This document shows, one piece after another, positions 10,606-38,370 of a stretch of 50,092 nucleotides of DNA (its first letter is position 1; every line of letters begins with the position of its first letter). The stretch covers positions 1-50,092 of IMG/VR virus record IMGVR_UViG_3300031576_000068; one strand, written 5' to 3'. Origin of the DNA: a virus. Position numbers and translations under genes: made by a program. The notes under the pieces were generated by a model. The model searched no databases. It saw nothing but the letters and a program-made list of their open reading frames with translations, and had not been told where the DNA came from.

Positions 10606-13187
10606 TGCTCTTGATCGACTCGACGCAGGATCTCCGGAGCCGGGCCGCGTTCATACGACCGGTCGTGCTCGTCACGATCACGGTCTCGGCACCGTCGGCG
10701 GCGACCTACCGGCTGTCCCACGACTTCCGGGTCTACGGGGCAAACGAATACCTTGATGCGCTGATTGAGGTGAGCCCGATAGTGACCGCAATCGGCCACC
10801 TCGGGAACGTCATGCGCCCCGAGACGATCTCGCTCAGGCTCCGGAACGACGAGCTAGGAGGGGAGCCGCTGCTAGATCTGTTCCTGTCGAGCGCCATTGA
10901 GGGCGCGCAGGTGCGGGTCGAGGAACTGCTCCTATCCACAGAAGAGTCACGCTTCAAGCCGACCAGCGCGGGGCCGGTGACCCGCTTCCTCGGGCGGATT
11001 AGGCGGGTGACGGATATCACGGCCCGGCAGTTCACCGTCGAATGCGTCGACGAGCTGATTGCGCTGGACGATGCGATCGACTGGTACACGGTGAAGGAAG
11101 CGGACGGCGCACCGAAGGAGGCGGTGGGGCTCAGGCTTCCGAAGGTCTACGGCTCGGGCGCACTGGTCAAGGCGGTCCCGTGGGATCGCGGCGCGTTCAC
11201 CACGCTCGGGCAGGATCTCACTCAGACGGCCACCGGCGCGATCAAGGTGGGGAGTACGAAGGATATTGTCGTCGCGGCTGGGTCTGGAGATGTGGTGGTT
11301 GGCGGCGAGGTCATGCACATAACCGCTAAAGACGATGCGGCCAGCACGATCACGGTCACTTTGCGCGGTCAGAGCGGCACGGCCGCCGTCCCGCACAAGA
11401 TCGGCGAGTCGGTCCTAGAGATTTCCCACGATAGCACGTGGATTGCTGCCGACGGGGGCGACAACAAGGCGGTGAGCCGCGTGTTCGTCCGCCGCCCAGG
11501 GACCGAGCAGCTCATCGACGTGACCTCGAAAGCGAGCGTGAACCTCACGCATTCGGGCCTCGTCTCCGGGCGCACGGTCGCGAGCGTCAAGATCACGAAG
11601 GCGAACCTTCAATCGCTCAAGCTGATCGACGACCTGATCCAGCAGCCGGTGCCGTCGGCGTCTCTCACGGAGATGGCGTTCGATGAAGCATGGGCAGTCA
11701 CCACAGACGGATCAACGAGCTTGCGTTTGGTTGGCTCGTCGTTATTGAGCGAGCCGCTGCTTGAAGGTGCCGCTGGCGGTACGTTCAACGAGCTGCATCG
11801 CTTCATCGGGCTCGCGAAGGATGATACGGCGATCGTCCAGAAGATCCGGGTCGGTTTCCTGGCCGACTACAAGCGGATCTTCACCGCGCAGAATGTCATC
11901 ACGGACGTGACGATTACGGGGCCGCTCGGGGTCATCCTCGCAACCACCGGCGTCAGCAGTAATACGAACGGAGCGAAAGTCGCACAAAGCGCTCTCGTGG
12001 ACATCGCGGCCTCCGGCTTCACGATCAACGACTTCGTTAACTCGGCCTTCTCCACGGTCGGCGCCCGTGTCTTCGTGAAGGTTACGACGAACAATGTGAC
12101 CGCGTTTCATACTGATCAGACGCAGGTCGCCTTCGGGAAGATCACCGTCGAGTTTCAGCTTGAACCGCTCTCCACTCGCGCCGCTTCCTTCTCCCCTGCG
12201 TTTGATCTGGAAATGTGGATCCAGATGGACGGCGCGAAGGTGCCATCAGCGGATGCGACCTACACGGTAGCGGCGGGAACACTCATCGAGAAGGACGTGG
12301 ATATTGCCCGGCACATACTCAAGAAACAACTGAAGGCCGGTGCACCATCACAGACTCTGGCTTCGGATTGGAACGCGCAGGCGGCACTTGACGGGACGAA
12401 CATCAAGCACGCCTTCGATCTGCGCGACGTGGGGCCCTCGCTTTCGGACGCTCTCGGGCGGCTGGCCGATGAGTCGCGGTTGAACGTGCTACTCGACGCC
12501 GGAACGTGGCGCGCCATCAGAAGGCGTACGCTTCCGCCGGGATACACGGCCGCAGACATCGAGATCCAGGAAGGTCAGACGGTCGGCGGACTCACGATCC
12601 AGCCGCGCGGCCTCGAAGAGATCGTGAATGCGGTCAAGGCCCGCTACCAGCGCAACCCGACTCTGGCCGGTGATGAAGGGTTCGAGGGATTGCGCGAGGC
12701 ATCCGACACAGCGAGTCAGGCCCTCTTCGGGGTGCGCGAGCATGAGGTCTTGTCATACCTGACGATCCTCGATCAGGCGACGGCCACGGATGCCCTGGCC
12801 GAGTACCTCCAGGAGATCGGGGACCGGCGCCTGGAGTTCCAGACGGACCTGCCCTATTACGAGGCCTATCTGTTCCAGGTCGGAGACGTGATTCGGGTCC
12901 TGTCGCCTTACAAATCGCAAACGGTGAGTGCGCGGATCGTCCGGCTGGAGCGCGATCTCGATAGCCAGGTCACGCGCCTCTCGCTCGTTCAGGTGCCCGG
13001 ACTGCTCTCCGCGTCGCGCCAAACGCGATTCGACGTGGCCGGGGTGCTCTCGCAATCGAGGCAGACCAAATTTGACGTTGCCGGGGTGCTCTCGCAATCG
13101 AGGCAGACCAAATTCGATGTGCTTCGGCAGCCGCCGAACCTCTTGGATGATGGTAGAAATCTTGATGATGGGAGCATTCTCGACTAG
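10605..13187 (+). CDS. Tail hub / tail-associated structural protein with a C-terminal tandem repeat
   Basis: An 860-residue protein starting at GTG 10605, overlapping the previous stop. The N-terminal half alternates strands and short helices (PETISLRLRNDELGGEPLLD, RQFTVECVDELIALDDAIDW) as in central tail hub proteins. The region at about residues 600-790 (HAFDLRDVGPSLSDALGRLA, then VGDVIRVLSPYKSQTVSARI) resembles the hub of mycophage-like and lambda-J-like tails. The last 65 residues hold three 14-residue repeats ending RQTRFD or RQTKFD, then an acidic tail (DDGRNLDDGSILD). The repeat probably extends a contact surface for the following appendage gene (inference). Confidence 0.7.
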   Translation: MLLIDSTQDLRSRAAFIRPVVLVTITVSAPSAATYRLSHDFRVYGANEYLDALIEVSPIVTAIGHLGNVMRPETISLRLRNDELGGEPLLDLFLSSAIEGAQVRVEELLLSTEESRFKPTSAGPVTRFLGRIRRVTDITARQFTVECVDELIALDDAIDWYTVKEADGAPKEAVGLRLPKVYGSGALVKAVPWDRGAFTTLGQDLTQTATGAIKVGSTKDIVVAAGSGDVVVGGEVMHITAKDDAASTITVTLRGQSGTAAVPHKIGESVLEISHDSTWIAADGGDNKAVSRVFVRRPGTEQLIDVTSKASVNLTHSGLVSGRTVASVKITKANLQSLKLIDDLIQQPVPSASLTEMAFDEAWAVTTDGSTSLRLVGSSLLSEPLLEGAAGGTFNELHRFIGLAKDDTAIVQKIRVGFLADYKRIFTAQNVITDVTITGPLGVILATTGVSSNTNGAKVAQSALVDIAASGFTINDFVNSAFSTVGARVFVKVTTNNVTAFHTDQTQVAFGKITVEFQLEPLSTRAASFSPAFDLEMWIQMDGAKVPSADATYTVAAGTLIEKDVDIARHILKKQLKAGAPSQTLASDWNAQAALDGTNIKHAFDLRDVGPSLSDALGRLADESRLNVLLDAGTWRAIRRRTLPPGYTAADIEIQEGQTVGGLTIQPRGLEEIVNAVKARYQRNPTLAGDEGFEGLREASDTASQALFGVREHEVLSYLTILDQATATDALAEYLQEIGDRRLEFQTDLPYYEAYLFQVGDVIRVLSPYKSQTVSARIVRLERDLDSQVTRLSLVQVPGLLSASRQTRFDVAGVLSQSRQTKFDVAGVLSQSRQTKFDVLRQPPNLLDDGRNLDDGSILD
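12993..13118 (+). repeat. Three tandem 42-bp repeats at the hub gene 3' end
   Basis: Units 12993-13034, 13035-13076 and 13077-13118 encode VPGLLSASRQTRFD, VAGVLSQSRQTKFD and VAGVLSQSRQTKFD. The second and third units are almost identical in DNA, while the first is diverged, which suggests a recent duplication of one unit. Confidence 0.9.
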
Positions 13188-16662: not shown

Positions 16663-16737
16663 CGGGACGTAGCGCAGCGGAAGCGCATCCGGCCTGGGAC
16701 CGGAGGGTCGCCCGTTCGATCCGGGCCGTCCCGACCA
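16663..16737 (+). tRNA. tRNA-Pro(UGG), CCA encoded
   Basis: The full cloverleaf is visible: acceptor CGGGACG (16663-16669) with CGTCCCG (16727-16733), discriminator A and encoded CCA; D stem GCGC/GCGC around a 7-base loop; anticodon stem TCCGG/CCGGA around loop CCTGGGA (16693-16699), anticodon TGG; variable GGGTC; T stem GCCCG/CGGGC around TTCGATC. Base 33, nearly always U, is C here. The gene begins immediately after the endolysin TGA, so it is probably cut from the late transcript. Confidence 0.92.
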
Positions 16738-19016: not shown

Positions 19017-20738
19017 CTACTCAGCCTCGCGCCGCACGCCGATCGCCCAGCACCGGCCAACCTCGTGAGCCGATTCGAACACCTCACTGGGCAAAACGGC
19101 GAATCCGGCGTAGATTGCGGCCCCGAAGGTGCCACGGAAGGCCCGGCCAGGCCGCCCTGGTGGGCGCCAGGCTCGCTTGGGGAGCCATGCAGGCCCCAGG
19201 CGCCCACCCTTCCGGGGGAACGCGACCTGGGGCCTTTCTGCGCGTTTCCAGTCCACATGCGCCCGGTCCGGCCAGACGGCGATCCCCTGAACCATCTTCC
19301 GCGCCAGGTCGCGCGCCGCCGCGCCCGCCGGTTCCTCCTGAAGCATCTCCCGCACGCGCTCCCTGAGCCCGCGCACCCGCGCCTCGGACCATTCGAGCCG
19401 CACGCGCGGGCGACGCGCCTCCACCAGGGCCGCCTCCCGATCCCGCTGCGCCGCGCGCAACTCCTCGATCCGGTCCATGAGGGGGCCCGGGTCGCCCCGC
19501 CCCGTCTCGATCGCGCGCACGAGCCGGGCCACCTGCCCCGCCAGCGTCCCGATCTCCTGCTCCAGGCGCCGGACCCTCTCCGAGCCGCCGTTCGCCCGAC
19601 GAAGCTCGATCCGGTTGTAGGTTGCGACCATCCGGCGCACGCTCTCCGGAGTGAGCAGGACGTCGGTCACCACGCGCAGGATCTCCCGATCGAAGTCCGC
19701 CATTCGCACGCGCACCCCCGGGCACCCCTGCTTCCCCGCCCGGCGATTGGAGCGGCAGCCGTAGTAGGCGTGGCGGCTGGAGCGGCCCTTCCCCGTCTCG
19801 AGCTGGAGCGCCGCGCCGCACAGGCCGCAGCGCAGGAGCCCGGAGAGTAGCCCGCGGCCGCGCACGGCCGGCAGGCCCGCGCAGGTCCTGGCATCAAGCC
19901 GCTCCTGGGCGGCGCGCCACGCGGCCTCGTCAATGATCGCCGGGTTGGCCCCCGGGACCGTGACCCATTCCTCACGGGCCTTCATGTTCTGACGCCTGCG
20001 CCACCCGCGCCGGTTGAAGATCGCAATCCCGGCGTTCCTGGAATTGCGGAGAATCCCGAGAATCCCGTGACTCGTCCACACCCCGCCCCGCCTTGTCCGC
20101 AGCCCATCGGCTGAGAGCGCCTGCGCGATCGCCTTCCCGCCGAGCCCCTCTCCGTGAAGCCGGAACATCCGCTCGACGGTGGGGCCCTCGGCCGGATCGA
20201 TCTCCAGGCGCGCCTTCGGGTTCCCGGCTTCATCCTTCACCGCCACGAATCGGAAGCCGAAGGGAGCATTGCCACCGTTCGCGTAGCCGCGCCTGGCGTT
20301 CTCGATCATGCCGCGCAGTGTCACCCGCGAGAGGGCGCGCGAGTAGTATTCGTCGATCACCTCGAGGATCGCTTCTTGCAGGAACCCGCCCTCGTCGTCC
20401 TGGCTGATTTGCTGGGAGGCGTAGAGGACCTTCACTCCGCGGCGGTGGAGGACGCCCTTCATGACCACGGCGTCTTCGCGGTTCCGGGCGAAGCGGGAGG
20501 TGTCGTAGCAGAGGAAGGCCTTCACGCCGGGCGTCTCCAGGCAGTAGTCGATCGCGCGCTTGAACGCGGGGCGATCGGCCGTGCGCGCGCTCTCGCCGGC
20601 GTCCTCGAACACCCGCGCGATCTCGAAGCCCTGATCGGCGGCGAACTTCCGGATAGCGGCGAGCTGGGACGGTAGCGACAGGTCCTTTTCGGCCTGGCGG
20701 TCGGTGGAGACGCGGAGATAGGCGATCGCTTGCTTCAT
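19017..20738 (-). CDS. int: Large serine integrase
   Basis: A 573-residue site-specific recombinase read from ATG 20738 (a GTG four codons upstream is also possible). The N-terminal resolvase domain has the catalytic serine in AYLRVSTDRQ (Ser 11), plus CYDTSRFARNREDAV and RGMIENARRGYANGGNAPFG. The recombinase domain follows (HGILGILRNSRNAGIAIFNR). A zinc ribbon has Cys pairs CGLCG and, further on, YYGCRSNRRAG and GC. A long coiled coil (about residues 390-455) ends with a basic tail, as in phiC31- and Bxb1-type integrases. It integrates the phage by attP x attB crossover, and excision needs a directionality factor; a gp3-like candidate lies at 28120. Convergent with the late operon, divergent from pyrF. 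Confidence 0.95.
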   Translation of the reverse strand: MKQAIAYLRVSTDRQAEKDLSLPSQLAAIRKFAADQGFEIARVFEDAGESARTADRPAFKRAIDYCLETPGVKAFLCYDTSRFARNREDAVVMKGVLHRRGVKVLYASQQISQDDEGGFLQEAILEVIDEYYSRALSRVTLRGMIENARRGYANGGNAPFGFRFVAVKDEAGNPKARLEIDPAEGPTVERMFRLHGEGLGGKAIAQALSADGLRTRRGGVWTSHGILGILRNSRNAGIAIFNRRGWRRRQNMKAREEWVTVPGANPAIIDEAAWRAAQERLDARTCAGLPAVRGRGLLSGLLRCGLCGAALQLETGKGRSSRHAYYGCRSNRRAGKQGCPGVRVRMADFDREILRVVTDVLLTPESVRRMVATYNRIELRRANGGSERVRRLEQEIGTLAGQVARLVRAIETGRGDPGPLMDRIEELRAAQRDREAALVEARRPRVRLEWSEARVRGLRERVREMLQEEPAGAAARDLARKMVQGIAVWPDRAHVDWKRAERPQVAFPRKGGRLGPAWLPKRAWRPPGRPGRAFRGTFGAAIYAGFAVLPSEVFESAHEVGRCWAIGVRREAE

Positions 20739-20752
20739 GCTCAAACCCACGG

Positions 20753-20781
20753 TTGACTCGGCCCCGGGACCGTGTTAGGTA
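20753..20781 (+). promoter_or_regulatory. Possible promoter in the int-pyrF divergent region
   Basis: TTGACT (20753-20758), a 17-base spacer, then TAGGTA (20776-20781). The -35 box is good and the -10 weak. The spacer contains a CCCGGG core (20764-20769). The 20739-20849 gap is also a natural place to look for attP, since serine integrase genes usually lie beside it. Confidence 0.4.
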
Positions 20782-20849
20782 GTGGCACCGCCTTGTCAGC
20801 CCAAGGCCCGCCTGGATCGCCAACCCATCGTTTCCGCCGGGGAATCCCG

Positions 20850-21563
20850 ATGGTCCTCTCTCCCAAGGATCGGCTGATCTTTCCCCTCGATGTTCCCGAT
20901 GTCCGGGAAGCCCGCCGCCTCATCGAACTGCTGAAGGACGAGGTCGGGCTGTTCAAGATTGGGCTCCAGCTTTTCACCGGCGAGGGCCTCCGCGCAGTTG
21001 GTCAGATCGCCAGCGAGCGCCCCACAGGGATCTTCCTCGATCTGAAGATCTTCGACATCAGCAACACGGTGAGCAGCGCGGCCCGCCAGCTCCACGGGAT
21101 GGAGATCGCTTTCCTCACCTTCCCGGCGGACCAGGGGCGAGCGGCCCTCGAGTCCGTCGTCAAGAACCGTCCCATCCCGGGCAGCAAGGTACTCGCCGTA
21201 ACGGTCCTCACGAGCCTTGACGAAGAGGGCATGCGCGAGGTGGGGATGTCCAAGTCGGTCCAGGAGGTCGTTCTGCTGCGCGCCGAGCTCGCGCGCGACG
21301 CCGGGTGTGACGGGGTTGTGTGCTCCGGCCTCGAGGCGCGCGCCGTCCGCGAGAGGATGGGCCCGAAGTTCATCGTCGTCTGCCCTGGGATCCGACCCTC
21401 CTGGTACCGGGAACCCGATGATCAGCGCCGGGTCACGACTCCGAGTGAGGCAATAAGGAACGGCGCCGATTACGTAGTGGTCGGTCGGCCAATCCGACTC
21501 GCCAAGGATCCAGCCGACGCGGCGCGGCGCGTTGTCAGTGAGATCGCGGAAGCTCTCCAGTAG
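20850..21563 (+). CDS. pyrF: Orotidine-5'-phosphate decarboxylase (host-type metabolic gene)
   Basis: A 237-residue protein; ATG 20850 follows GGGGAATCCC and an in-frame GTG at 20772 is less likely. It decarboxylates OMP to UMP, the last step of de novo pyrimidine synthesis. All hallmark elements are visible: LDVP (Asp 14), LFKIG (Lys 36), FLDLKIFDISNTV (Asp 64, Lys 66, Asp 69 of the DxKxxD catalytic array), AVTVLTS, VCSGLEA, CPGIRP and the phosphate loop VVVGRPI. Length is normal for the family and no break is seen, so it is probably functional. It is an isolated cargo gene between the integrase and the repressor operon, with no other pyr gene nearby. Confidence 0.95.
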   Translation: MVLSPKDRLIFPLDVPDVREARRLIELLKDEVGLFKIGLQLFTGEGLRAVGQIASERPTGIFLDLKIFDISNTVSSAARQLHGMEIAFLTFPADQGRAALESVVKNRPIPGSKVLAVTVLTSLDEEGMREVGMSKSVQEVVLLRAELARDAGCDGVVCSGLEARAVRERMGPKFIVVCPGIRPSWYREPDDQRRVTTPSEAIRNGADYVVVGRPIRLAKDPADAARRVVSEIAEALQ

Positions 21564-23348: not shown

Positions 23349-24008
23349 CTATCGCCGTCTTCTCACATCCACCACCCGCATCATCTTCCGAATCTCAGAC
23401 CTCGGAACCACGATCGGCTCGTAGGCCGGGTTCACGGATTGAAGGATCAGCACGTCGCCCTTCGGGTAGACCGCCTTCAGGTACGCCTTCCCGTCCCGCA
23501 TCTGCACGAGGGCTTCATCGCCTGTTCTCACCCGCGCGAGCCTCGGCGAAATGATCACCACGTCGCCGTCCCGAAGAGAAGGGACCATCGAGTCACCGCG
23601 GACTCGGAGGGCGAAGGCGTGGGGATCCCGCAGGTCCGCATTCCCGGCCACGTACTCATCCCCACCACCGACGGGCAGGCCCTCGTCCGTCCAGGCGATC
23701 CGCGAGGGACCAGCGGAGACGTGGCCGATGATGGCGATCATGCTGGGATCACCGGCTTCCCGGACGAGGCTTGCTCCATCGTTCCCATAGAGAGCCGCCC
23801 TTAAGATCCCTGATGCGCCCAACTTTTCACATAATCGTCGAAGCAGCTTGAGCGACGGCTTTCCACGGCCATTTTCTATCATGCTCAACCAGACTTCCGA
23901 AATCCCTAGAGTTTCCGCCAAGCTGGCCTGTGATATGTCAGCCTTCTCCCGCGCATCGGCTAGGAGTTGCCCGAGCTTTTCCAAAGGGATCTGGTAGTCC
24001 TGATCCAT
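23349..24008 (-). CDS. CI/LexA-type repressor with S24 self-cleavage domain
   Basis: A 219-residue protein. The N-terminal HTH (about residues 10-66) reads SQASLAETLGISEVWLSMIE then GKPSLKLLRRLCEKLG. The C-terminal S24 peptidase has Ser 140 in VRGDSMVPSLRDGDVV and Lys 178 in GKAYLKAV, with a likely Ala-Gly cleavage site at 99-100 (HVSAGPS). It would bind operators to hold lysogeny and self-cleave on RecA activation, giving SOS-inducible induction (family knowledge). The ATG at 24008 follows GGGAG. Divergent from the Cro-like gene at 24160. Confidence 0.93.
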   Translation of the reverse strand: MDQDYQIPLEKLGQLLADAREKADISQASLAETLGISEVWLSMIENGRGKPSLKLLRRLCEKLGASGILRAALYGNDGASLVREAGDPSMIAIIGHVSAGPSRIAWTDEGLPVGGGDEYVAGNADLRDPHAFALRVRGDSMVPSLRDGDVVIISPRLARVRTGDEALVQMRDGKAYLKAVYPKGDVLILQSVNPAYEPIVVPRSEIRKMMRVVDVRRRR

Positions 24009-24159: not shown

Positions 24160-24405
24160 ATGCGGACTCCCTTGAAAGCCTGGCTCGAAGAAAAGGCGGT
24201 CACGAACCGCGAACTGACGCGGCGCGTGAGCCGGATCCGAAAACGGAAGATCACCGAGCAGCGCATCGGGCAGATCGCCTCCGGGGAAAGTCCCTCGCCG
24301 TCGCTTGCCCGTGCGATTGCAAGGGCCACCGGACTTTCGGAATTGGATCTCCTATATCCGAAGAACGTTCCTGCCGTCCCGAAGCAGCCCGAGGCCCAGC
24401 CATGA
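24160..24405 (+). CDS. Cro-like HTH regulator
   Basis: An 81-residue protein at ATG 24160, first gene of the rightward operon and divergent from the repressor. It has an XRE-like fold: WLEEKAVTNRELTRRVSRIR, then TEQRIGQIASGESPSPSLAR and AIARATGLSELDLLYP. It would compete with the repressor at shared operators to favour lytic growth (lambda logic). The region between the two HTHs is 151 bases and holds the operator dyad described. Confidence 0.8.
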   Translation: MRTPLKAWLEEKAVTNRELTRRVSRIRKRKITEQRIGQIASGESPSPSLARAIARATGLSELDLLYPKNVPAVPKQPEAQP

Positions 24406-24976: not shown

Positions 24977-25177
24977 ATGCCCCGAGTCGCCAGCCATGCC
25001 GCAGATCGAACCCGCGCTGCTCGCATCGAGCACCTGGGCGAGCCGGACCCGCAGGGCGAGGCGATGGACGACTTCCTCCAAACCCTCGCGGTGGACGTGG
25101 AAGAGGGGCGACTGTGCAGCGAGTGTTTTGGGGCGGTGAGTAATCACCGAGTTTATTGCGGAACGGTTAAGACATGA
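24977..25177 (+). CDS. Small Cys-containing early protein
   Basis: A 66-residue protein, ATG 24977 preferred over TTG 24971. The C-terminus (LCSECFGAVSNHRVYCG) gives a C-x2-C...H...C pattern typical of small zinc sites. The stop overlaps the HNH gene start by ATGA. Confidence 0.5.
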   Translation: MPRVASHAADRTRAARIEHLGEPDPQGEAMDDFLQTLAVDVEEGRLCSECFGAVSNHRVYCGTVKT

Positions 25178-25716
25178 ACGGCTTACAAATTCCTCAATTA
25201 CAAAACACACAAGATCGCGCGATCATGTTCGCTAGATTTTGGTCAAAGGTGAGAATTGTCGCCGCAAACGATTGCTGGCTGTGGTTGGGTTGTAAGGACA
25301 AGTCAGGATATGGCCGATTTCGCGCCCGCGCGGCAAGCGAGGTCCGCTACGCACATAGAGTTGCTTATACCATTGCTGTGGAACCAATTCCTGATGGCGT
25401 CCTAATTTGTCATCGTTGTGACAATCCGCCGTGCTGCAATCCTAGTCATCTGTTTATTGGCACGCACGCAACCAATAGTCTTGATTGCGTCGTTAAAGGA
25501 CGCAGTAATCACGGAGAACGCAATCCTAATGCTCGCCTGACAATAAATATGATCGAAAGGATCCTGGCTTTGTTGGCGGATGGTAAATCGCCGGTCGAGG
25601 TTGCGTCACTAGCGCGGGTGACTCCTGACACAATCTATCTCATAAGAGCTAAAAAAATATGGCGTAGAGAAATGCAAAGCATCGGAATGCTCACGCCGTA
25701 CCGTGCAGGGGGATGA
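25174..25716 (+). CDS. HNH homing-type endonuclease (copy 1)
   Basis: A 180-residue protein in a visibly more AT-rich stretch than its neighbours. Motifs: DCWLWLGCKDKSGYGRFR, then RYAHRVAYTIAVEPIPDGVL, the HNH core CHRCDNPPCCNPSHLFIGTH and a C-terminal HTH-like end (SPVEVASLARVTPDTIYLIR). It matches two other genes here (27632 and 35948). Such free-standing HNH endonucleases spread by cutting intron- or gene-less alleles (family knowledge). Confidence 0.9.
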   Translation: MNGLQIPQLQNTQDRAIMFARFWSKVRIVAANDCWLWLGCKDKSGYGRFRARAASEVRYAHRVAYTIAVEPIPDGVLICHRCDNPPCCNPSHLFIGTHATNSLDCVVKGRSNHGERNPNARLTINMIERILALLADGKSPVEVASLARVTPDTIYLIRAKKIWRREMQSIGMLTPYRAGG

Positions 25717-26117: not shown

Positions 26118-26277
26118 CCGAGAACAGGTACACGGCGATTTCAGGCGCGACGTGGACAGCCTCGCGCCCGTCGGCGGCTGGTTCGCCAACGTGATCATCC
26201 CGCTGTTCGCCGCGATCTCGTGGGCCGCGATCGTCGGGCTCCTGGCGCTCGCGTTCGCCGTGCTGGTGCGGACATGA
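26104..26277 (+). CDS. Small single-span membrane protein
   Basis: A 57-residue protein from ATG 26104 after GGAGAGGGGGG. Charged N-terminus (LRSDREQVHGDFRRD), then a long hydrophobic segment (FANVIIPLFAAISWAAIVGL and onward). The stop overlaps the repeat-protein start (ATGA). Function unknown. Confidence 0.55.
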   Translation: MLRSDREQVHGDFRRDVDSLAPVGGWFANVIIPLFAAISWAAIVGLLALAFAVLVRT

Positions 26278-27260
26278 GCAAGATCATCCGCGTCACCAAC
26301 CAGACCGAGTTCGAGAAGGCGCTGAAGGCGAATGGCTCCGAGATCCACCTGGCCGACAACGGGATCTACTCCATCAGCACCGGCGAACACCTGATCATCG
26401 TTGACGCCGGCTTCTCACCTACGGTCGTGGCGTGGGGGTCGTCGAGCCCGACGGTCGAGGCGTGGGAGTCGTCGAGCCCGAGGGTCGTGGCGCGGGAGTC
26501 GTCGAGCCCGAGGGTCGTGGCGTGGGGGTCGTCGAGCCCGACGGTCGTGGCGTGGGAGTCGTCGAGCCCGAGGGTCGTGGCGTGGGGGTCGTCGAGCCCG
26601 ACGGTCGAGGCGTGGGCGTCGTCGAGCCCGAGGGTCGTGGCGTGGGGGTCGTCGAGCCCGAGGGTCGTGGCGTGGGGGTCGTCGAGCCCGAGGGTCGTGG
26701 CGTGGGGGTCGTCGAGCCCGACGGTCGAGGCGCGGGGGTCGTCGAGCCCGAGGGTCGTGGCGTGGGAGTCGTCGAGCCAGAGGGGTTCCGTTGGAAAATT
26801 CGCAGTGATCGTCGGGCAGGCTCTGGACCGAGCGAAGATCAATATCCCAGGTCTGATCGTGCTCCCAACGCCCAAGATCGAAACGGCGTCCGATTGGTGC
26901 GACTACTACGGCGTTTCGGTCGAGGGGGACATCGCGATCCTCTACAAGGCCGTGGGGGACGATTACCGAAGCCATCGCGGTTTTCTCTATCAGCCGGGAA
27001 CGCGCGTCGAGTGCCAGGATTGGGACGGCGGTAAGGAAGAGTGCGGGGGCGGGCTCCACTTCTCACCTTCGCCCGGAGCCGCTCTCAACTTCAATCCAGA
27101 CGCGAAGCGCTTCATGGCCTGCCCCGTCGCTCTCGCCGACATCGTGGTCCACAAGAACGCCGAGTATCCCGCAAAGATCAAAGCACAGCGCAGCTGTGGG
27201 CCGTGCTTGGAAGTGGACATCGACGGGAACAGGATCGAGCAGAAGGAGAGTGCGGCGTGA
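26274..27260 (+). CDS. Repeat-solenoid protein with 12 decapeptide repeats
   Basis: A 328-residue protein from ATG 26274. Residues 1-49 form a short lead domain, residues 50-169 are twelve consecutive 10-residue units of pattern [TR]V[VE]A[WR][GEA]SSSP, and residues 170-328 form a separate domain with [39 protein letters not shown] and LHFSPSPG. Similar decapeptide solenoids joined to a CGGGLHFS-type domain occur in uncharacterised phage and bacterial proteins (recollection, not searched). The repeats would stack into an even solenoid displaying the variable residues. The stop overlaps the next GTG. Confidence 0.8.
26421..26780 (+). repeat. Twelve perfect-length 30-bp tandem repeats
   Basis: Exactly 12 head-to-tail units of 30 bp. 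Apart from the last codon of unit 12 (CAG for CCG), units vary at only four bases of the unit: base 2 (C/G, Thr/Arg), base 8 (T/A, Val/Glu), base 13 (T/C, Trp/Arg) and base 17 (G/A/C, Gly/Glu/Ala). Every variant changes an amino acid; no synonymous difference is present. Confidence 0.97.
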
Positions 27261-27481: not shown

Positions 27482-27631
27482 TCCTCGGGGGATAGCCATC
27501 CCACGCGAGTGGACGTCCAGGCCCTCGCGTTGACCCCGGGGATCAGTGAGGACGGTCGCGGCATCGCATACGGGAACGTGCAACGTCGCCGGAGGGTCCG
27601 GTGGCCGGGGCCGTCTACTTTGAGGATAAGT

Positions 27632-28129
27632 ATGAGCGGCATGACGCCATCGCAGCACGAGATCGGTTACTTCCTGTCTCGTTTCGATAAGCTGGACGCC
27701 GAACAGTGTTGGCTCTTGAAATCAACGGGGCATAGCAATTATTACGGCGAAGTTCGGGTAGGCGGAAAACGGGAAGGCGCGCACAGATTTTCCTATCGCT
27801 ACTTCTTCGGTCCAATTCCGGATGGTCTTCAAGTCCTACATCGTTGTGATACGCCGCCCTGTGTAAATCCTAGCCACCTATTTTTAGGAACCCAAGCCGA
27901 CAATATGATCGACAGGGATCGTAAGGGGCGTGCCCGCACGCCGCACGGCGAGACGGCCGGCCCATCCAAACTGACACCGGATCAGGTGCATTCAATCCGC
28001 TCTCTATTCCGTGAAGGAAACCTCAGCAACGCTGCAATCGGGAGGCGCTACGGAATTACGCGTGAAGCGGTTTGCCTGATTGGGCTAGGCAAGAATTGGC
28101 GTCATCTACCGGAGGCAACATGGCCATAA
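27632..28129 (+). CDS. HNH homing-type endonuclease (copy 2)
   Basis: A 165-residue protein; ATG 27632 follows GAGGATAAGT. Paralogue of the genes at 25174 and 35948: CWLLKSTGHSNYYGEVRVGG, GAHRFSYRYFFGPIPDGLQV, HNH core LHRCDTPPCVNPSHLFLGTQ and an HTH-like C-terminus (SNAAIGRRYGITREAVCLIG). It lies just before the RDF-like gene and overlaps its start by 10 bases. Confidence 0.9.
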   Translation: MSGMTPSQHEIGYFLSRFDKLDAEQCWLLKSTGHSNYYGEVRVGGKREGAHRFSYRYFFGPIPDGLQVLHRCDTPPCVNPSHLFLGTQADNMIDRDRKGRARTPHGETAGPSKLTPDQVHSIRSLFREGNLSNAAIGRRYGITREAVCLIGLGKNWRHLPEATWP

Positions 28130-29175: not shown

Positions 29176-30333
29176 ATGAACGCCACCGACACTGGCCTCA
29201 TGGCCTTCAGCTATTCACGATTCAATACCTTCGACCGCTGTCCTCTTTGGTTCCGGCTCCGCTACATCGACCGGATTCCAGAGGCCGACTCAGCCCCGCT
29301 CGTCACGGGCCGGATCGCGCACGAAGTCGCCGAGGCTTACGGGAAGCACTGCATCGGGAATGGCGTGGCGACGGACTTTGCCTTCTTCGATGATCTCGCG
29401 CGCCGGGCCTGCTCGGATGCGCCGGCGGAAGTCGGGGCGGATCTCCGGGGGATCCTTGACACGATGCGGGACACGATCTCGTTCATCGAGGGCCCGGCGT
29501 CTCGGATCGAGGAGGAGCTGGCCTTCGATCGGGAGTGGCGGCCAGTCGCGTGGGACGACCCGGCCGTGTTCTTCCGCGCGAAAATCGACAAGCGGATGAC
29601 GACGGACGAAGGGGTCATCGTTTGGGACTTGAAAACTGATCGCCGCATTCCCCCTGCCTCCGACCTTCCGACGAATCCGCAGCTTCGGATCTACGCCTAT
29701 CTCGTCACCCTGCTCGACCCGGACGTCCAGTCGATCACCGTCGTTCTGTTTTTCGGGCGTTACGGTCGCTCGCAGTCCTGGACGTTCACCCGCGAGGAGG
29801 CGGAGAGCTACGGGAAGGAAATCGAGCGGAAGGCCGAGCGGATCGAGGTGGAGATGGAGTGGACCCCGCGGCTTGGGGAAGCGTGCCGGATCTGCCCGTA
29901 CACGGCGCGGTGCGAGGCGTTCCAGTCGGCCTACGCGGGAATGGATTTCCTCGTGCGCGACGAGGAGCACGCCCGCGAGCTCGCCGCGCGTCGCGAGGCC
30001 GTGGGCGCCGCCTACGATCTGCTCACGGAATCGCTCAAGGCCCACGTCGAGGCCCACGGCCGGATCGCGCTCCCTGACGGGCGCGTGCTTGATTTCGTCC
30101 CGGGAACGAAGGTGACGTTCGAGGACGTGCGGGCTGTCGTCGCGTTCCTCCGGAAGGAACTGGGAGACGATCTCGCGTGGGCGGCGCTGTCCACGACGAA
30201 GACGCAGGTCACGAAGGTGATCCGGAAAGCCAAGCGCAAGGACCTGATCGACGCCGCGCTCGCGCTCGGGACGGAGACGCCGACGACCACGTTCAAGATC
30301 GCGAAGAAGGGCGAGGAGGGGGAGGAAGGGTGA
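29176..30333 (+). CDS. RecB/Cas4-family PD-(D/E)XK nuclease with Fe-S cysteines
   Basis: A 385-residue protein whose ATG follows directly on the preceding stop. Motifs in order: FSYSRFNTFDRCPLWFRLRY (first Cys), VTGRIAHEVAEAYG (motif with His), FFRAKIDKRMTTDEGVIVWD then LKTDR (D...DxK active site), YAYLVTLLDPD, and ACRICPYTARC (three Cys, which with the first would hold a 4Fe-4S cluster). Members process DNA ends in recombination and defence. The C-terminal region (RVLDFVPGTKVTFEDVRAVV) is extra. Confidence 0.88.
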   Translation: MNATDTGLMAFSYSRFNTFDRCPLWFRLRYIDRIPEADSAPLVTGRIAHEVAEAYGKHCIGNGVATDFAFFDDLARRACSDAPAEVGADLRGILDTMRDTISFIEGPASRIEEELAFDREWRPVAWDDPAVFFRAKIDKRMTTDEGVIVWDLKTDRRIPPASDLPTNPQLRIYAYLVTLLDPDVQSITVVLFFGRYGRSQSWTFTREEAESYGKEIERKAERIEVEMEWTPRLGEACRICPYTARCEAFQSAYAGMDFLVRDEEHARELAARREAVGAAYDLLTESLKAHVEAHGRIALPDGRVLDFVPGTKVTFEDVRAVVAFLRKELGDDLAWAALSTTKTQVTKVIRKAKRKDLIDAALALGTETPTTTFKIAKKGEEGEEG

Positions 30334-31424
30334 ACCTCAAGTTACATCCGATCGTTCACCTCTTTCCTCGCATGCCGAAGGAGGAGTTTGACGAGCTGGT
30401 CGCGGACATTCGCGCGCACGGGCTCAGGCGCCCGCTTCTAGTTCACCACGGCCAGATCCTGGACGGGCGCCACCGATGGGAAGCTGCGGAGAAACTCGGG
30501 ATCGATTGCCAGACCGAGGAATGGGACGGGCGGGGCTCGCTTACCGACCTGGTGATCTCGCTCAACCTCAAGCGTAGGCACCTGAACCAGAGCCAGAAGG
30601 GGACGGTCGTTGTAGGGGCCGAGAAATTCTATGCGGAGGAATTAAAGGCAAACCAGCGCCTATCCCAAGGACGCGGGAAAAAAGGTGTGGCAGGAATGCC
30701 ACCCCTTATTCGAGGCAAAGCGCGTGATCACGCGGCCAAGAAAATTGGCGTGAGCCCTCGCTATGTCCAGGACGCGAAGGCAATCCAAAAGCGCGCGCCG
30801 GAACGGTTCGAAGAGATCAAGGCCGGGAAGGCGACCATCTCACAGGTGAAGCGGGACCTTTCTCGCGCAGATCGGATCGAGAAACTAGTCCCGAAGTCAC
30901 TTCCCCCAAGCGGCGAAGATCGGCGCGTCCCCCTCCTCCTCGCCGATCCGCCGTGGCGCTACGAACATGTCGTCACGGAGAGCCGTGCGATCGAGAACCA
31001 GTACCCGACCATGAGCCACGACGAAATCAAGGCCTACCCGGTGGCCCGGCTCGCAACCGACGATGCGGTCCTGTTCCTGTGGGCTACGAGCCCGAAGCTG
31101 GCCGAGGCGCTCGAAGTCATGGCGACCTGGGGTTTCACCTATCGGACCTCGCTCGTGTGGGTGAAGGACAAGATCGGGATGGGCTACTGGGCGCGGCAGC
31201 GCCACGAGCTACTCCTGGTCGGCACGCGCGGCAATCCTCCCGCACCGGAACCTGCGAACCGGCCCGACTCGGTGTTCTCGGCGCCACGTGGCCGACACAG
31301 TGAGAAACCGGCCATCGTCTACGAGATCCTCGAAAGCCTGTATCCGGAATGGAAGGACAACCGAAGAGAGGTCTTCGCGCGGTCCAAGCGAGATGGCTGG
31401 TTGTGCTTGGGTAACGAAATATGA
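30330..31424 (+). CDS. ParB-like domain fused to MT-A70 DNA adenine methyltransferase
   Basis: A 364-residue protein; GTG 30330 overlaps the preceding TGA. N-terminal ParB/Srx-like module: HPIVHLFPRMPKEEFDELVA, IRAHGLRRPLLVHHGQILDG, RHRWEAAEKLG. An HTH-like middle follows (HAAKKIGVSPRYVQDAKAI). The C-terminal MT-A70 domain has DPPW (in LLLADPPWRYEHV, near residue 207), FLWATSPKLAEALEVMATWG, SLVWVKDKIGMGYWARQRHE and LLLVGTRGN. MT-A70 phage enzymes methylate adenine N6 and can protect DNA from restriction. This fusion is common in phages (family knowledge). Confidence 0.9.
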   Translation: MNLKLHPIVHLFPRMPKEEFDELVADIRAHGLRRPLLVHHGQILDGRHRWEAAEKLGIDCQTEEWDGRGSLTDLVISLNLKRRHLNQSQKGTVVVGAEKFYAEELKANQRLSQGRGKKGVAGMPPLIRGKARDHAAKKIGVSPRYVQDAKAIQKRAPERFEEIKAGKATISQVKRDLSRADRIEKLVPKSLPPSGEDRRVPLLLADPPWRYEHVVTESRAIENQYPTMSHDEIKAYPVARLATDDAVLFLWATSPKLAEALEVMATWGFTYRTSLVWVKDKIGMGYWARQRHELLLVGTRGNPPAPEPANRPDSVFSAPRGRHSEKPAIVYEILESLYPEWKDNRREVFARSKRDGWLCLGNEI

Positions 31425-35718: not shown

Positions 35719-35955
35719 ATGAGCCGGGCGGCGAAAAAGGCGGCTTTCCAGTGGGATGACCATTCATTCCGGCACAGGGATTGTTCAAGTGATTGCTTCA
35801 TGGAGATCATCGACGCCGCCCTCGCCCCCGAGCGGGAAGCGGCGCGGAGGTTGAGGGATACGGCGTTCTCCGTATTGAACACGACGGCTAACTGGAAGAA
35901 CGGCGACCTACGCGAAGCCATCGCCCACTTCGACGCGGTGACTGAAAATGAGTGA
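35719..35955 (+). CDS. Small hypothetical protein
   Basis: A 78-residue protein at ATG 35719 after AAGGAGGACGG. The same 13-base leader (GTGCGAGAAGGAG) stands before this gene and the previous one. Two Cys (HRDCSSDCF) and a helical C-terminus (EREAARRLRDTAFSVLNTT). The HNH gene starts within its last codons. Confidence 0.55.
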   Translation: MSRAAKKAAFQWDDHSFRHRDCSSDCFMEIIDAALAPEREAARRLRDTAFSVLNTTANWKNGDLREAIAHFDAVTENE

Positions 35956-36406
35956 CCTTCCGGTGAGTGTCTTGAGGCGCTTCATGTTGAAAGTGGTCAA
36001 TAATGGGAACTGCTGGGACTGGATTGGCGGCAAGATGACGCGCGGATATGGGAACTTCTCAATCGAAGGCCGACTACATGGAGCACACCGCGTCTCATGG
36101 CAGCTATTTCGCGGTCCTATACCTAGCGACCTGTGGGTTTTGCATCTTTGTGATAGGCCGCAATGTGTAAACCCGGAACACCTGTTTCTAGGCAATCATA
36201 AAAACAACATGGAAGATTGCGCCAAGAAGAAGCGTACCCGCAATGGACGCACACAATCCGATATTCGTCCATGTGGACATATTAGAAGCGCGGAAACTAC
36301 CTACGTTGCAAGCCCACGTTCAAAACATTGCTGGCCATGTCTCCGCGTTTACTGGCGCGACCGTTATTACATACGAAAAGCAGCGGTGATGAAGGAGGAG
36401 CCTTGA
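35948..36406 (+). CDS. HNH homing-type endonuclease (copy 3)
   Basis: A 152-residue paralogue of the HNH genes at 25174 and 27632: NCWDWIGGKMTRGYGNFSIE, GAHRVSWQLFRGPIPSDLWV, HNH core LHLCDRPQCVNPEHLFLGNH, then a Cys group (RPCGHIRS and HCWPC) that differs from copies 1 and 2. It overlaps both neighbours, and the next gene starts with TTG in its stop. This suggests insertion between two genes with restored coupling. Confidence 0.9.
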   Translation: MSDLPVSVLRRFMLKVVNNGNCWDWIGGKMTRGYGNFSIEGRLHGAHRVSWQLFRGPIPSDLWVLHLCDRPQCVNPEHLFLGNHKNNMEDCAKKKRTRNGRTQSDIRPCGHIRSAETTYVASPRSKHCWPCLRVYWRDRYYIRKAAVMKEEP

Positions 36407-37440: not shown

Positions 37441-38370
37441 GTGGCGCGACAGCGGACGCTGAATCCGGGTTTCTTCGTGAACGAGCAGCTCGCGGCGTTG
37501 GCACCTCACGCCCGGCTACTCTTTGCCGGGCTGTGGACGATTGCCGACCGGGAGGGGAGACTTCGGGACAGGCCGGCGGTGATCCACGGGGCGCTTTTCC
37601 CACACGAACCAGACGTTGATGTTGATGATCTGCTTGATCGGTTAGCAAAATCAGGTTTCATAGCCCGATACTCTGACTGCTCCGCATCATATATAGAGGT
37701 GCTCGCCTGGGCAAAGTATCAGCGGCCACACCACGCGGAAGTATCCAGCAGCATTCCACCTTTTATCCGACCAAAGGTAGGGCGTGGCCCGGTAAAAGGT
37801 AGGGCCGAGCCCGGTAAAAGGCTGTCGCCAACCCGCCTTGATCCGGAATCCGGATCCCTTGATCCGGATACGGAAGAATCAAGATCAAAACCCTTGTCAC
37901 CGGCGCCAGAGAACGGCGCCAGTGACCCTCTCCCTTCGCCCCACGATTGGCTCGAGGCCTGGAACACCACGGCGAAGGCCGGAGGGCTCCGCATGGCCAG
38001 AGCCATGACCGAAACGCGCCGTCGCCTCATCGCGGTCCGCCTCCACGAGCACCCGGACCTCGCGTGGTGGCAGGCCGTCTTCGATCGTCTCGCGCGCTCG
38101 CGATTCGCCCGCGGGGAGAACGACCGCGGCTGGAGCGCCGGGATCGACTTTATGCTCAGGCCGAACACTGCGTTGCGAATTCTCGAAGGCGAGTTCGACG
38201 GCCCAGGAGGCGCCGGCGTGAATGGCGGTGACTCCCGTGGCGCCGGCGCTCGCTCCGAAGCGGCACGGGTCTTCCGCGAGCAGGACGAGGCCCGAGAGAA
38301 CGCGGTGAGCGAGGAGGAGCGGAAAGAGGCAATGGCGAAACTGCGTGGTGTGATCGGCGACACGAGTTGA
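37441..38370 (+). CDS. Replication initiation / helicase-loader-like protein
   Basis: A 309-residue protein from GTG 37441 after GGGGAGGGGGAGG. The N-terminus has a winged-helix look seen in phage replisome organisers: NPGFFVNEQLAALAPHARLL, FAGLWTIADREGRLRDRP, DDLLDRLAKSGFIARY and YIEVLAWAKYQRPHHAE. A variable Pro/Ser-rich linker follows, then a C-terminal helical domain (SPHDWLEAWNTTAKAGGLRM, RLIAVRLHEHPDLAWWQAVF, RGWSAGIDFMLRPNTALRIL) like those of phage O- or DnaT-type proteins. The linker DNA holds iteron-like repeats, as in lambda O (which encloses ori). Confidence 0.75.
   Translation: MARQRTLNPGFFVNEQLAALAPHARLLFAGLWTIADREGRLRDRPAVIHGALFPHEPDVDVDDLLDRLAKSGFIARYSDCSASYIEVLAWAKYQRPHHAEVSSSIPPFIRPKVGRGPVKGRAEPGKRLSPTRLDPESGSLDPDTEESRSKPLSPAPENGASDPLPSPHDWLEAWNTTAKAGGLRMARAMTETRRRLIAVRLHEHPDLAWWQAVFDRLARSRFARGENDRGWSAGIDFMLRPNTALRILEGEFDGPGGAGVNGGDSRGAGARSEAARVFREQDEARENAVSEEERKEAMAKLRGVIGDTS
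37773..37868 (+). repeat. Iteron-like repeats inside the replication gene (origin candidate)
   Basis: A 22-bp repeat (37773-37794, 37795-37816, plus the first bases of a third) is followed by two copies of CTTGATCCGGA (37837-37847, 37858-37868) with ATCCGGAT between. The array falls in the low-constraint linker of the initiator-like protein, the same position as the iterons of lambda O. Confidence 0.62.

Follow-up and report, generated by a model that had tools for sequence, protein, structure and literature searches.

We identified a hypervariable tandem array within a gene of the IMG/VR virus record IMGVR_UViG_3300031576_000068 (the window analysed here is the whole record, 50,092 bases). 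The protein encoded by this array gene consists of an N-terminal cap (N-cap), twelve near-identical units of ten residues that are predicted to form a beta-solenoid, and a C-terminal DUF7666 domain that profile comparison identifies as a homologue of the T4 RIIB C-terminal domain. In homologous arrays, codon variation is almost entirely amino-acid-changing and is concentrated at four unit positions, and the arrays evolve far more rapidly than the sequence around them in the gene. From these features we infer, tentatively and with a probability of about 0.45, a counter-defence protein whose hypervariable solenoid would be tuned to a partner and whose RIIB-like domain would act on an exclusion pathway.

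Codon variation in the array and in its relatives

A preliminary description of the window had reported twelve exact 30-bp units whose variation is solely amino-acid-changing. Re-reading the array codon by codon gave the same result, and Tandem Repeats Finder (TRF) agreed, with a 30-bp array at 26423-26784 (12.1 copies, 92% matches, zero indels, score 619). In register from 26421, the first six residues are TVVAWG, TVEAWE, RVVARE, RVVAWG, TVVAWE and RVVAWG in units 1-6, and TVEAWA, RVVAWG, RVVAWG, RVVAWG, TVEARG and RVVAWE in units 7-12; SSSP closes units 1-11, and the last unit closes with SSSQ (codon CAG). Four codons vary, at unit positions 1, 3, 5 and 6 (ACG/AGG, GTG/GAG, TGG/CGG and GGG/GAG/GCG), and all remaining codons except the terminal CAG are identical base for base. 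The other frames of the array are also open, but the way codons vary throughout the family is consistent with the plus-strand frame described here alone. The association of Glu-3 with Thr-1, also pointed out earlier, holds in the window (3/3 units; chance of about 0.045 from the counts) but not as a family rule, as the closest relative, L047, has RIESWE units.

The window array by itself gives no proof of selection, the absence of synonymous changes among its 5 codon variants having P = 0.18; the significance is supplied by the family. The main test set comprised 26 arrays with 368 units, retrieved by homology and not by searching for the repeat pattern. These arrays contained 117 nonsynonymous and 7 synonymous codon variants, where 27% synonymous would be expected with transitions weighted 2:1 (P = 7e-10, to be read as indicative because related arrays are partly dependent on each other). 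Nearly all of the nonsynonymous variants (109/117) fall at unit positions 1, 3, 5 and 6. The unit definition restricts positions 2, 4, 7 and 8, which can under-count nonsynonymous changes there and hides no synonymous ones. Arrays found by pattern yielded 202 nonsynonymous and 17 synonymous variants; because these had been preselected for V/E, W/R and G/E/D in two adjacent units, our claim rests on the homology-found set.

The variants are mostly one-base switches at all four positions: R versus S/T/H at position 1, V/E in 25/31 variants at position 3, W/R in 22/32 at position 5, and G/E or G/D in 24/30 at position 6. In nearly every array, three to four codon switches are present in both of their states, and the same switches occur in differing codon contexts (GGG/GAG, GGA/GAA and GGC/GAC; TGG/CGG and TGG/AGG). 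Synonymous choice is fixed within an array and differs between arrays, with V written as GTC, GTT or GTG and A as GCG, GCC or GCT; the invariant S codons are likewise uniform inside each array and different across arrays. Since the switches involve several base types (T/A, T/C, G/A, C/G and A/C), no single mutagenic chemistry accounts for them. A weak tendency pairs E3 with W5 and V3 with R5 (pooled z -5.7; sign test, 39 versus 20 arrays, P 0.018). The earlier proposal of a recent expansion with selected diversification is thus borne out by the family, in which synonymous and nonsynonymous changes are far from equal and the number of units is not fixed (2 to 67), and not by the window alone.

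Speed and mode of array change

Comparisons between closely related phages set the array apart from the remainder of the gene. Among Redi, Raymond7, Rebel and one IMG/VR relative, the DNA of the N-cap and C-terminal domain (~570 nt) shows zero differences, and the arrays between them hold 3.9, 2.9, 3.9 and 6.9 units, respectively, with different content. SkinnyPete and Frankie are also identical in N-cap and C-domain DNA, with arrays that differ in both number and content. The whole genomes of Redi and BabeRuth (42.6 kb) are distinguished by one 1-nt indel and two substitutions, and both substitutions sit in the 93-bp array, where they turn VEAS of unit 2 into the VVAW of unit 1 (positions 3 and 5), as a conversion tract would. 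IMG/VR pairs with 1,500 bp of 100% identical flank carry 67 versus 12 and 16 versus 9 units, counts to be read with the caveat that metagenome assemblies can collapse repeats. These sequence comparisons show that gain and loss of whole units and exchange of short segments make the array change far more rapidly than the remainder of the gene does.

The farther apart two switch bases lie in base pairs, the weaker their linkage (Spearman -0.64, P 0.0014), and the decay crosses unit boundaries too; the squared correlation (r2) is 3.2x its shuffled value at 4 bp and near 1x beyond ~15-20 bp. This decay fits frequent short, out-of-register exchanges between units rather than independent mutation of each site. 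Because linkage decays in this way, the diversity looks like the product of shuffling by recombination together with the retention of two states per site. Of the mechanistic diversification suggested in the preliminary description, recombination shuffling is therefore what the linkage supports, and a targeted mutator is not indicated.

Comparison within the window's own lineage was limited: its flanking DNA had no DNA-level relative in the phage collection, and the neighbouring Gp3-like gene had none in IMG/VR, so this lineage could not be followed strain by strain.

Domain anatomy and genome context

The window protein matches phrog_15773 (E 6.8e-33) over residues 37-326, spanning the array and the C-terminal domain. 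Searches with tblastn returned 30 phage records with relatives, 27 of them mycobacteriophages (Che8, ThetaBob, Squirty, SkinnyPete, Frankie, the Redi group and others), the remainder being one Gordonia phage, ctHz2215 and Dulem virus 38; further relatives were found in IMG/VR. Scans with degenerate patterns of two adjacent units detected at least 80 stretches with 8-residue units and 38 with 10-residue units. Most relatives are built as an N-cap with the motif '[VI]xTQAELDxAL', a solenoid and DUF7666, and most use 8-residue units (GSAHV[VE]A[WR]), whereas the units of the window have 10 residues; L047 carries 67 units of [TR]I[VE]S[WR][GE]SSSP. In L026 (4611-5315), a DUF7666-like domain precedes the array, and in L190 (2-964) and L066 (4148-5062) the same kind of array is followed by unrelated C-terminal domains. 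Because domain order and identity differ among these three, the parts of the family are, as far as sequence can tell, modular and shuffled between proteins. In L081 (933-1913, minus-strand coordinates), PSSVQHRT occurs three times within the array, possibly representing units frame-shifted after compensating indels. Other searches returned little: no solved-structure relative was found by sequence, a Pfam family search of a Sphingopyxis genome found nothing, and the sole match in a plasmid search was a weak one to a Sinorhizobium autotransporter.

The conserved C-terminal domain noted in the preliminary description recurs throughout the family, and in other domain orders, and can be named. Pfam PF24703 (DUF7666) matches residues 222-285 at 30.6 bits, against a gathering cut-off of 27; in the DUF7666 alignment, K, C-G-x-H, K and G are invariant, and W and E nearly so. 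Folded alone, the domain reached an AlphaFold predicted local distance difference test (pLDDT) score of 95, and the best Foldseek matches among viral models (BFVD) were RIIB proteins (E 2.8e-4; root-mean-square deviation 2.5-3.4 over ~110 residues). An hhalign comparison of 38 DUF7666 with six RIIB sequences aligned T4 RIIB residues 194-312 (probability 95.7, E 1e-8), with a score of 63.9 compared with at most 16.1 in 60 column-shuffled controls. These profile alignments indicate that DUF7666 and the T4 RIIB C-terminal domain are homologous. Foldseek matches of the domain in the PDB were mostly to the ADP-ribosyltransferase fold (the CNFy domain, PARP14, LT/cholera A1 and Tpt1) and lay below significance (E 0.03-0.6; template modelling scores 0.33-0.43), so that this fold is only a lead.

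For the whole protein, AlphaFold was run with 38 window and IMG/VR sequences and predicted a beta-solenoid, in agreement with the solenoid proposed at first reading. Each unit contributes one strand (residues 50-54, 60-64 and so on), made of positions 1-5, followed by a turn of positions 6-10; pLDDT is ~80, declining to 43-57 where the array ends on its C-terminal side. The N-cap is predicted as a strand, a helix and further strands that open the solenoid (E4-7 H10-18 E23-26 E31-34 E40-44). Judging from strand alternation in this model, the side chains of the invariant V and A would face the solenoid interior, whereas positions 1, 3 and 5 would be exposed and position 6 would lie in the turn. 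Given the two-state switches and the otherwise uniform codons of the arrays, selection probably maintains diversity on the outward side of the solenoid, with homogenising recombination preserving its fold.

We read the window as a temperate phage from its terminase, portal, head, tail, repressor and recombinase genes; the features discussed here are collected in Table 1.

Table 1. Features of the window, with position, strand and basis of assignment.
Feature	Position	Strand	Basis
Serine recombinase	19017-20750	-	named from its sequence
CI-like repressor	23352-24008	-	profile scan
Cro-like helix-turn-helix (HTH) protein	24160-24405	+	profile scan
HNH endonuclease	25174-25716
Small open reading frame (ORF), 57 aa, one hydrophobic, probably membrane-spanning segment	26104..26277	+	sequence
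Array gene, 328 aa	26274..27260	+	ORF; phrog_15773 member
N-cap, residues 1-49, motif '[VI]xTQxEFDxAL...'	26274..26420	+	common to most relatives; AlphaFold
Twelve 30-bp units, [TR]V[VE]A[WR][GEA]SSSP, hypervariable beta-solenoid (predicted)	26421..26780	+	sequence, TRF, AlphaFold
Solenoid C-terminal cap and linker	26781..26864	+	sequence; AlphaFold confidence low, pLDDT 43-57
C-terminal DUF7666 domain, residues 198-328	26865..27257	+	Pfam PF24703, hhalign versus RIIB, AlphaFold, BFVD
HNH endonuclease	27509-28129
HNH endonuclease	35948-36406

The array gene lies downstream of the CI-like repressor and adjoins recombination genes. In Redi, it lies downstream of the repressor and excise genes and upstream of RecE/RecT, and in ctHz2215 it lies beside RecT and exonuclease genes. 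Following the HTH gene, an early-type operon runs through the first HNH gene, a 134-aa ORF, the 57-aa ORF, the array gene and the second HNH gene, and continues with a Gp3-like recombination directionality factor, an exonuclease, a ParB-like/methyltransferase ORF (30177-31424, with both the ParB-like and the DNA methyltransferase parts in a single frame) and an SbcC-like protein. The stop of the 57-aa ORF overlaps the start of the array gene (ATGA), and the ORF matched no Pfam family at cut-off; it is probably only an operon neighbour, because the upstream ORFs of relatives differ. The three HNH genes are of one type, and the first two flank the array gene, an arrangement that usually signals a site of gene exchange. 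Elsewhere in the window, an ORF at 20772-21563 adjoins the serine recombinase and resembles orotidine 5'-phosphate decarboxylase; it has no PHROG match and may be a host gene or an auxiliary metabolic gene. A tRNA-Pro (TGG anticodon) lies at 16663-16737, and other short tandem repeats at 13003-13121 (42 bp x 2.8) and 37773-37821 (22 bp x 2.2).

Candidate function and comparison with known systems

We propose that the array gene encodes an early phage protein made up of the N-cap, the beta-solenoid and the RIIB-like domain. The RIIB-like domain may act on, or be delivered to, an exclusion (abortive-infection) pathway encoded by the host or a prophage; the solenoid would be the part tuned to a partner through its length and surface pattern, and each phage lineage would keep re-tuning it. 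T4 rII permits growth on lambda lysogens despite RexAB (PMC8594841, PMC9391042). Counter-defence against abortive infection is suggested because two independent lines, the RIIB-like domain and a neighbouring analogue of the Tweety gp54 type, point there. The preliminary description had suggested that the protein may be a 'binding or decoy molecule', which is an interpretation of the array; the RIIB-like domain points more to counter-defence than to a plain adhesin or decoy.

Several observations weigh against this proposal. No PADLOC defence-system profile matches the window protein, and the family members are all annotated as 'hypothetical protein'. The array gene is apparently frameshifted or truncated in EleanorGeorge (L016 1893-2390), Nitzel (L018 2083-2699) and Soul22 (L020 1830-2309), and is therefore dispensable in at least these phages. 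Unlike the RIIB N-terminus, the window protein contains no HTH family in Pfam; T4 RIIB itself gave weak HTH matches, the best at 23.6 bits against a cut-off of 23.8. No rIIA (GHKL ATPase) was detected among the scanned neighbours, which are HNH, RDF-like, exonuclease, ParB/methyltransferase and SbcC-like genes, the scan having covered part of the window ORFs. Tweety gp54 is a different protein, with AA[GWQ][SY] repeats, other N- and C-termini and no DUF7666, so that it offers an analogy only, and the mechanism of RIIB/rII against RexAB is poorly understood (PMC8594841, PMC9391042).

Among the alternatives, the solenoid might serve as a length-tuned spacer between the N-cap and the RIIB-like domain, with mixed exposed residues (W/R, V/E and G/E) keeping it soluble and in register, since beta-units that were all alike would adhere to one another. 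The range of unit numbers, the tendency of units to combine a hydrophobic residue with a charged one (E3/W5, V3/R5) and the model proposed for Tweety gp54 (PMC9262239) all favour such a spacer. However, Redi and BabeRuth have equal unit numbers and arrays that differ by two surface residues, so length is not the sole thing that changes, and solubility leaves the rapid change of order and content unexplained; we regard this explanation as possible though doubtful. A combinatorial surface code, in which the three to four two-state residues of each unit, reshuffled by recombination at all scales, set which factor of a defence system or a rival phage the RIIB-like domain neutralises, seems rather unlikely; if true, it would constitute an evolvable, repeat-built recognition system that needs no retroelement. 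We also consider it unlikely that the solenoid is sensed as a trigger or decoy by a defence protein of the host or a prophage, from which the phage escapes by altering the exposed pattern, in the manner of an antigen. The restriction of the diversifying pattern to exposed positions would fit such an escape, as would the broken genes, which are expected if presence is costly; no sensor is known, however, and nearly every lineage keeps the same two residues per site where a wider range would be expected.

Still less probable is a modular recognition code in which the three or four exposed residues of each unit read one element of an extended ligand, such as a polymer, a nucleic acid or a repeat protein, as in transcription activator-like (TAL) effectors. 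TAL-effector repeats are near-identical at the DNA level, with residue variation at fixed positions only, and the arrays share near-identical repeats, a small fixed alphabet, fixed positions and variable length, with states that combine almost freely beyond ~15 bp. TAL-effector repeats, however, are helical, 34 residues long and DNA-reading, without sequence relation to the array family; no ligand is known for the arrays, no regular relation to any sequence was found, and the early phage context gives no hint of one. Neutral slippage, that is, tandem duplication and unequal exchange without selection, with synonymous changes missing by chance, clearly contributes its first part and is compatible with the window alone, but as a complete explanation it is refuted by the family-wide excess of nonsynonymous variants and the recurrence of the same switches in different codon contexts, and we judge it highly improbable. 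Targeted mutagenesis, for example by a diversity-generating retroelement (DGR), would confine changes to a few fixed positions as observed, but can practically be dismissed given switches that are not adenine-specific, a scan of the larger ORFs of the window that showed no reverse transcriptase, and a linkage decay that fits recombination.

Redi and BabeRuth are mycobacteriophages in culture on M. smegmatis mc2 155, which makes the effect of a surface switch on plating directly testable. Should the array set specificity, it would give phages a recombination-driven recognition system with a role comparable to that of DGRs.

Within the family, the phrog_15773/DUF7666 proteins Che8 gp59, Squirty gp51, ThetaBob gp59, Redi gp44 and SkinnyPete gp38 have the same N-cap, array and C-terminal domain as the window protein and vary at the same unit positions, mostly with 8-residue units. 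T4 RIIB shares the homologous C-terminal domain and is likewise an early phage protein, but differs from the window protein in its N-terminal helix-turn-helix region and in lacking a repeat array; its partner is rIIA. In the case of the Bordetella phage bbp36 VR2 repeats, a non-essential gene likewise carries short repeats that vary in number (cited in PMC2884959); unlike the window array, they consist of a 24-bp element with spacers and are unrelated in sequence.

A parallel in behaviour is offered by the Tweety gp54-type proteins of cluster F mycobacteriophages. A gene of this type lies a few genes from the array gene in Che8, EleanorGeorge, Soul22 and L081 (in Che8, as gp57, two genes upstream). 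Tweety gp54 was considered as a homologue of the array protein and rejected, as it belongs to the family of the neighbouring gene; a scan of the window found no AAxx run, and the termini of the window protein are unrelated to those of the gp54 type. AAxS tetrapeptide repeats occur near the array gene at ~4214 in L006 (Che8), 698-1534 in L016, 658-1440 in L020, 376 in L081 and 8242 in L007, and their variable residue in Che8, EleanorGeorge and L081 is mostly W/G/R/E, much like array positions 5 and 6. Tweety gp54 and Che8 gp57 have, like the array family, in-frame repeats with invariant third and variable first and second codon positions, a variable number of units and a place in the early operon, and the repeats of Che8 gp57 share the W/G/R/E alphabet. 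The invariant third codon positions were noted in the 2007 description of Tweety gp54, which called the variation 'consistent with selection' (PMC2884959); the Phrann gp29/gp30 defence is overcome by gp54 variants in which the number of repeats has risen or fallen (PMC9262239). The array brings together a phage protein family that has no name, the question, now 70 years old, of how T4 rII blocks exclusion, and the counter-defence repeats by which Tweety gp54 is tuned. The family is unannotated, yet by this analogy its behaviour resembles known repeat-tuned counter-defence.
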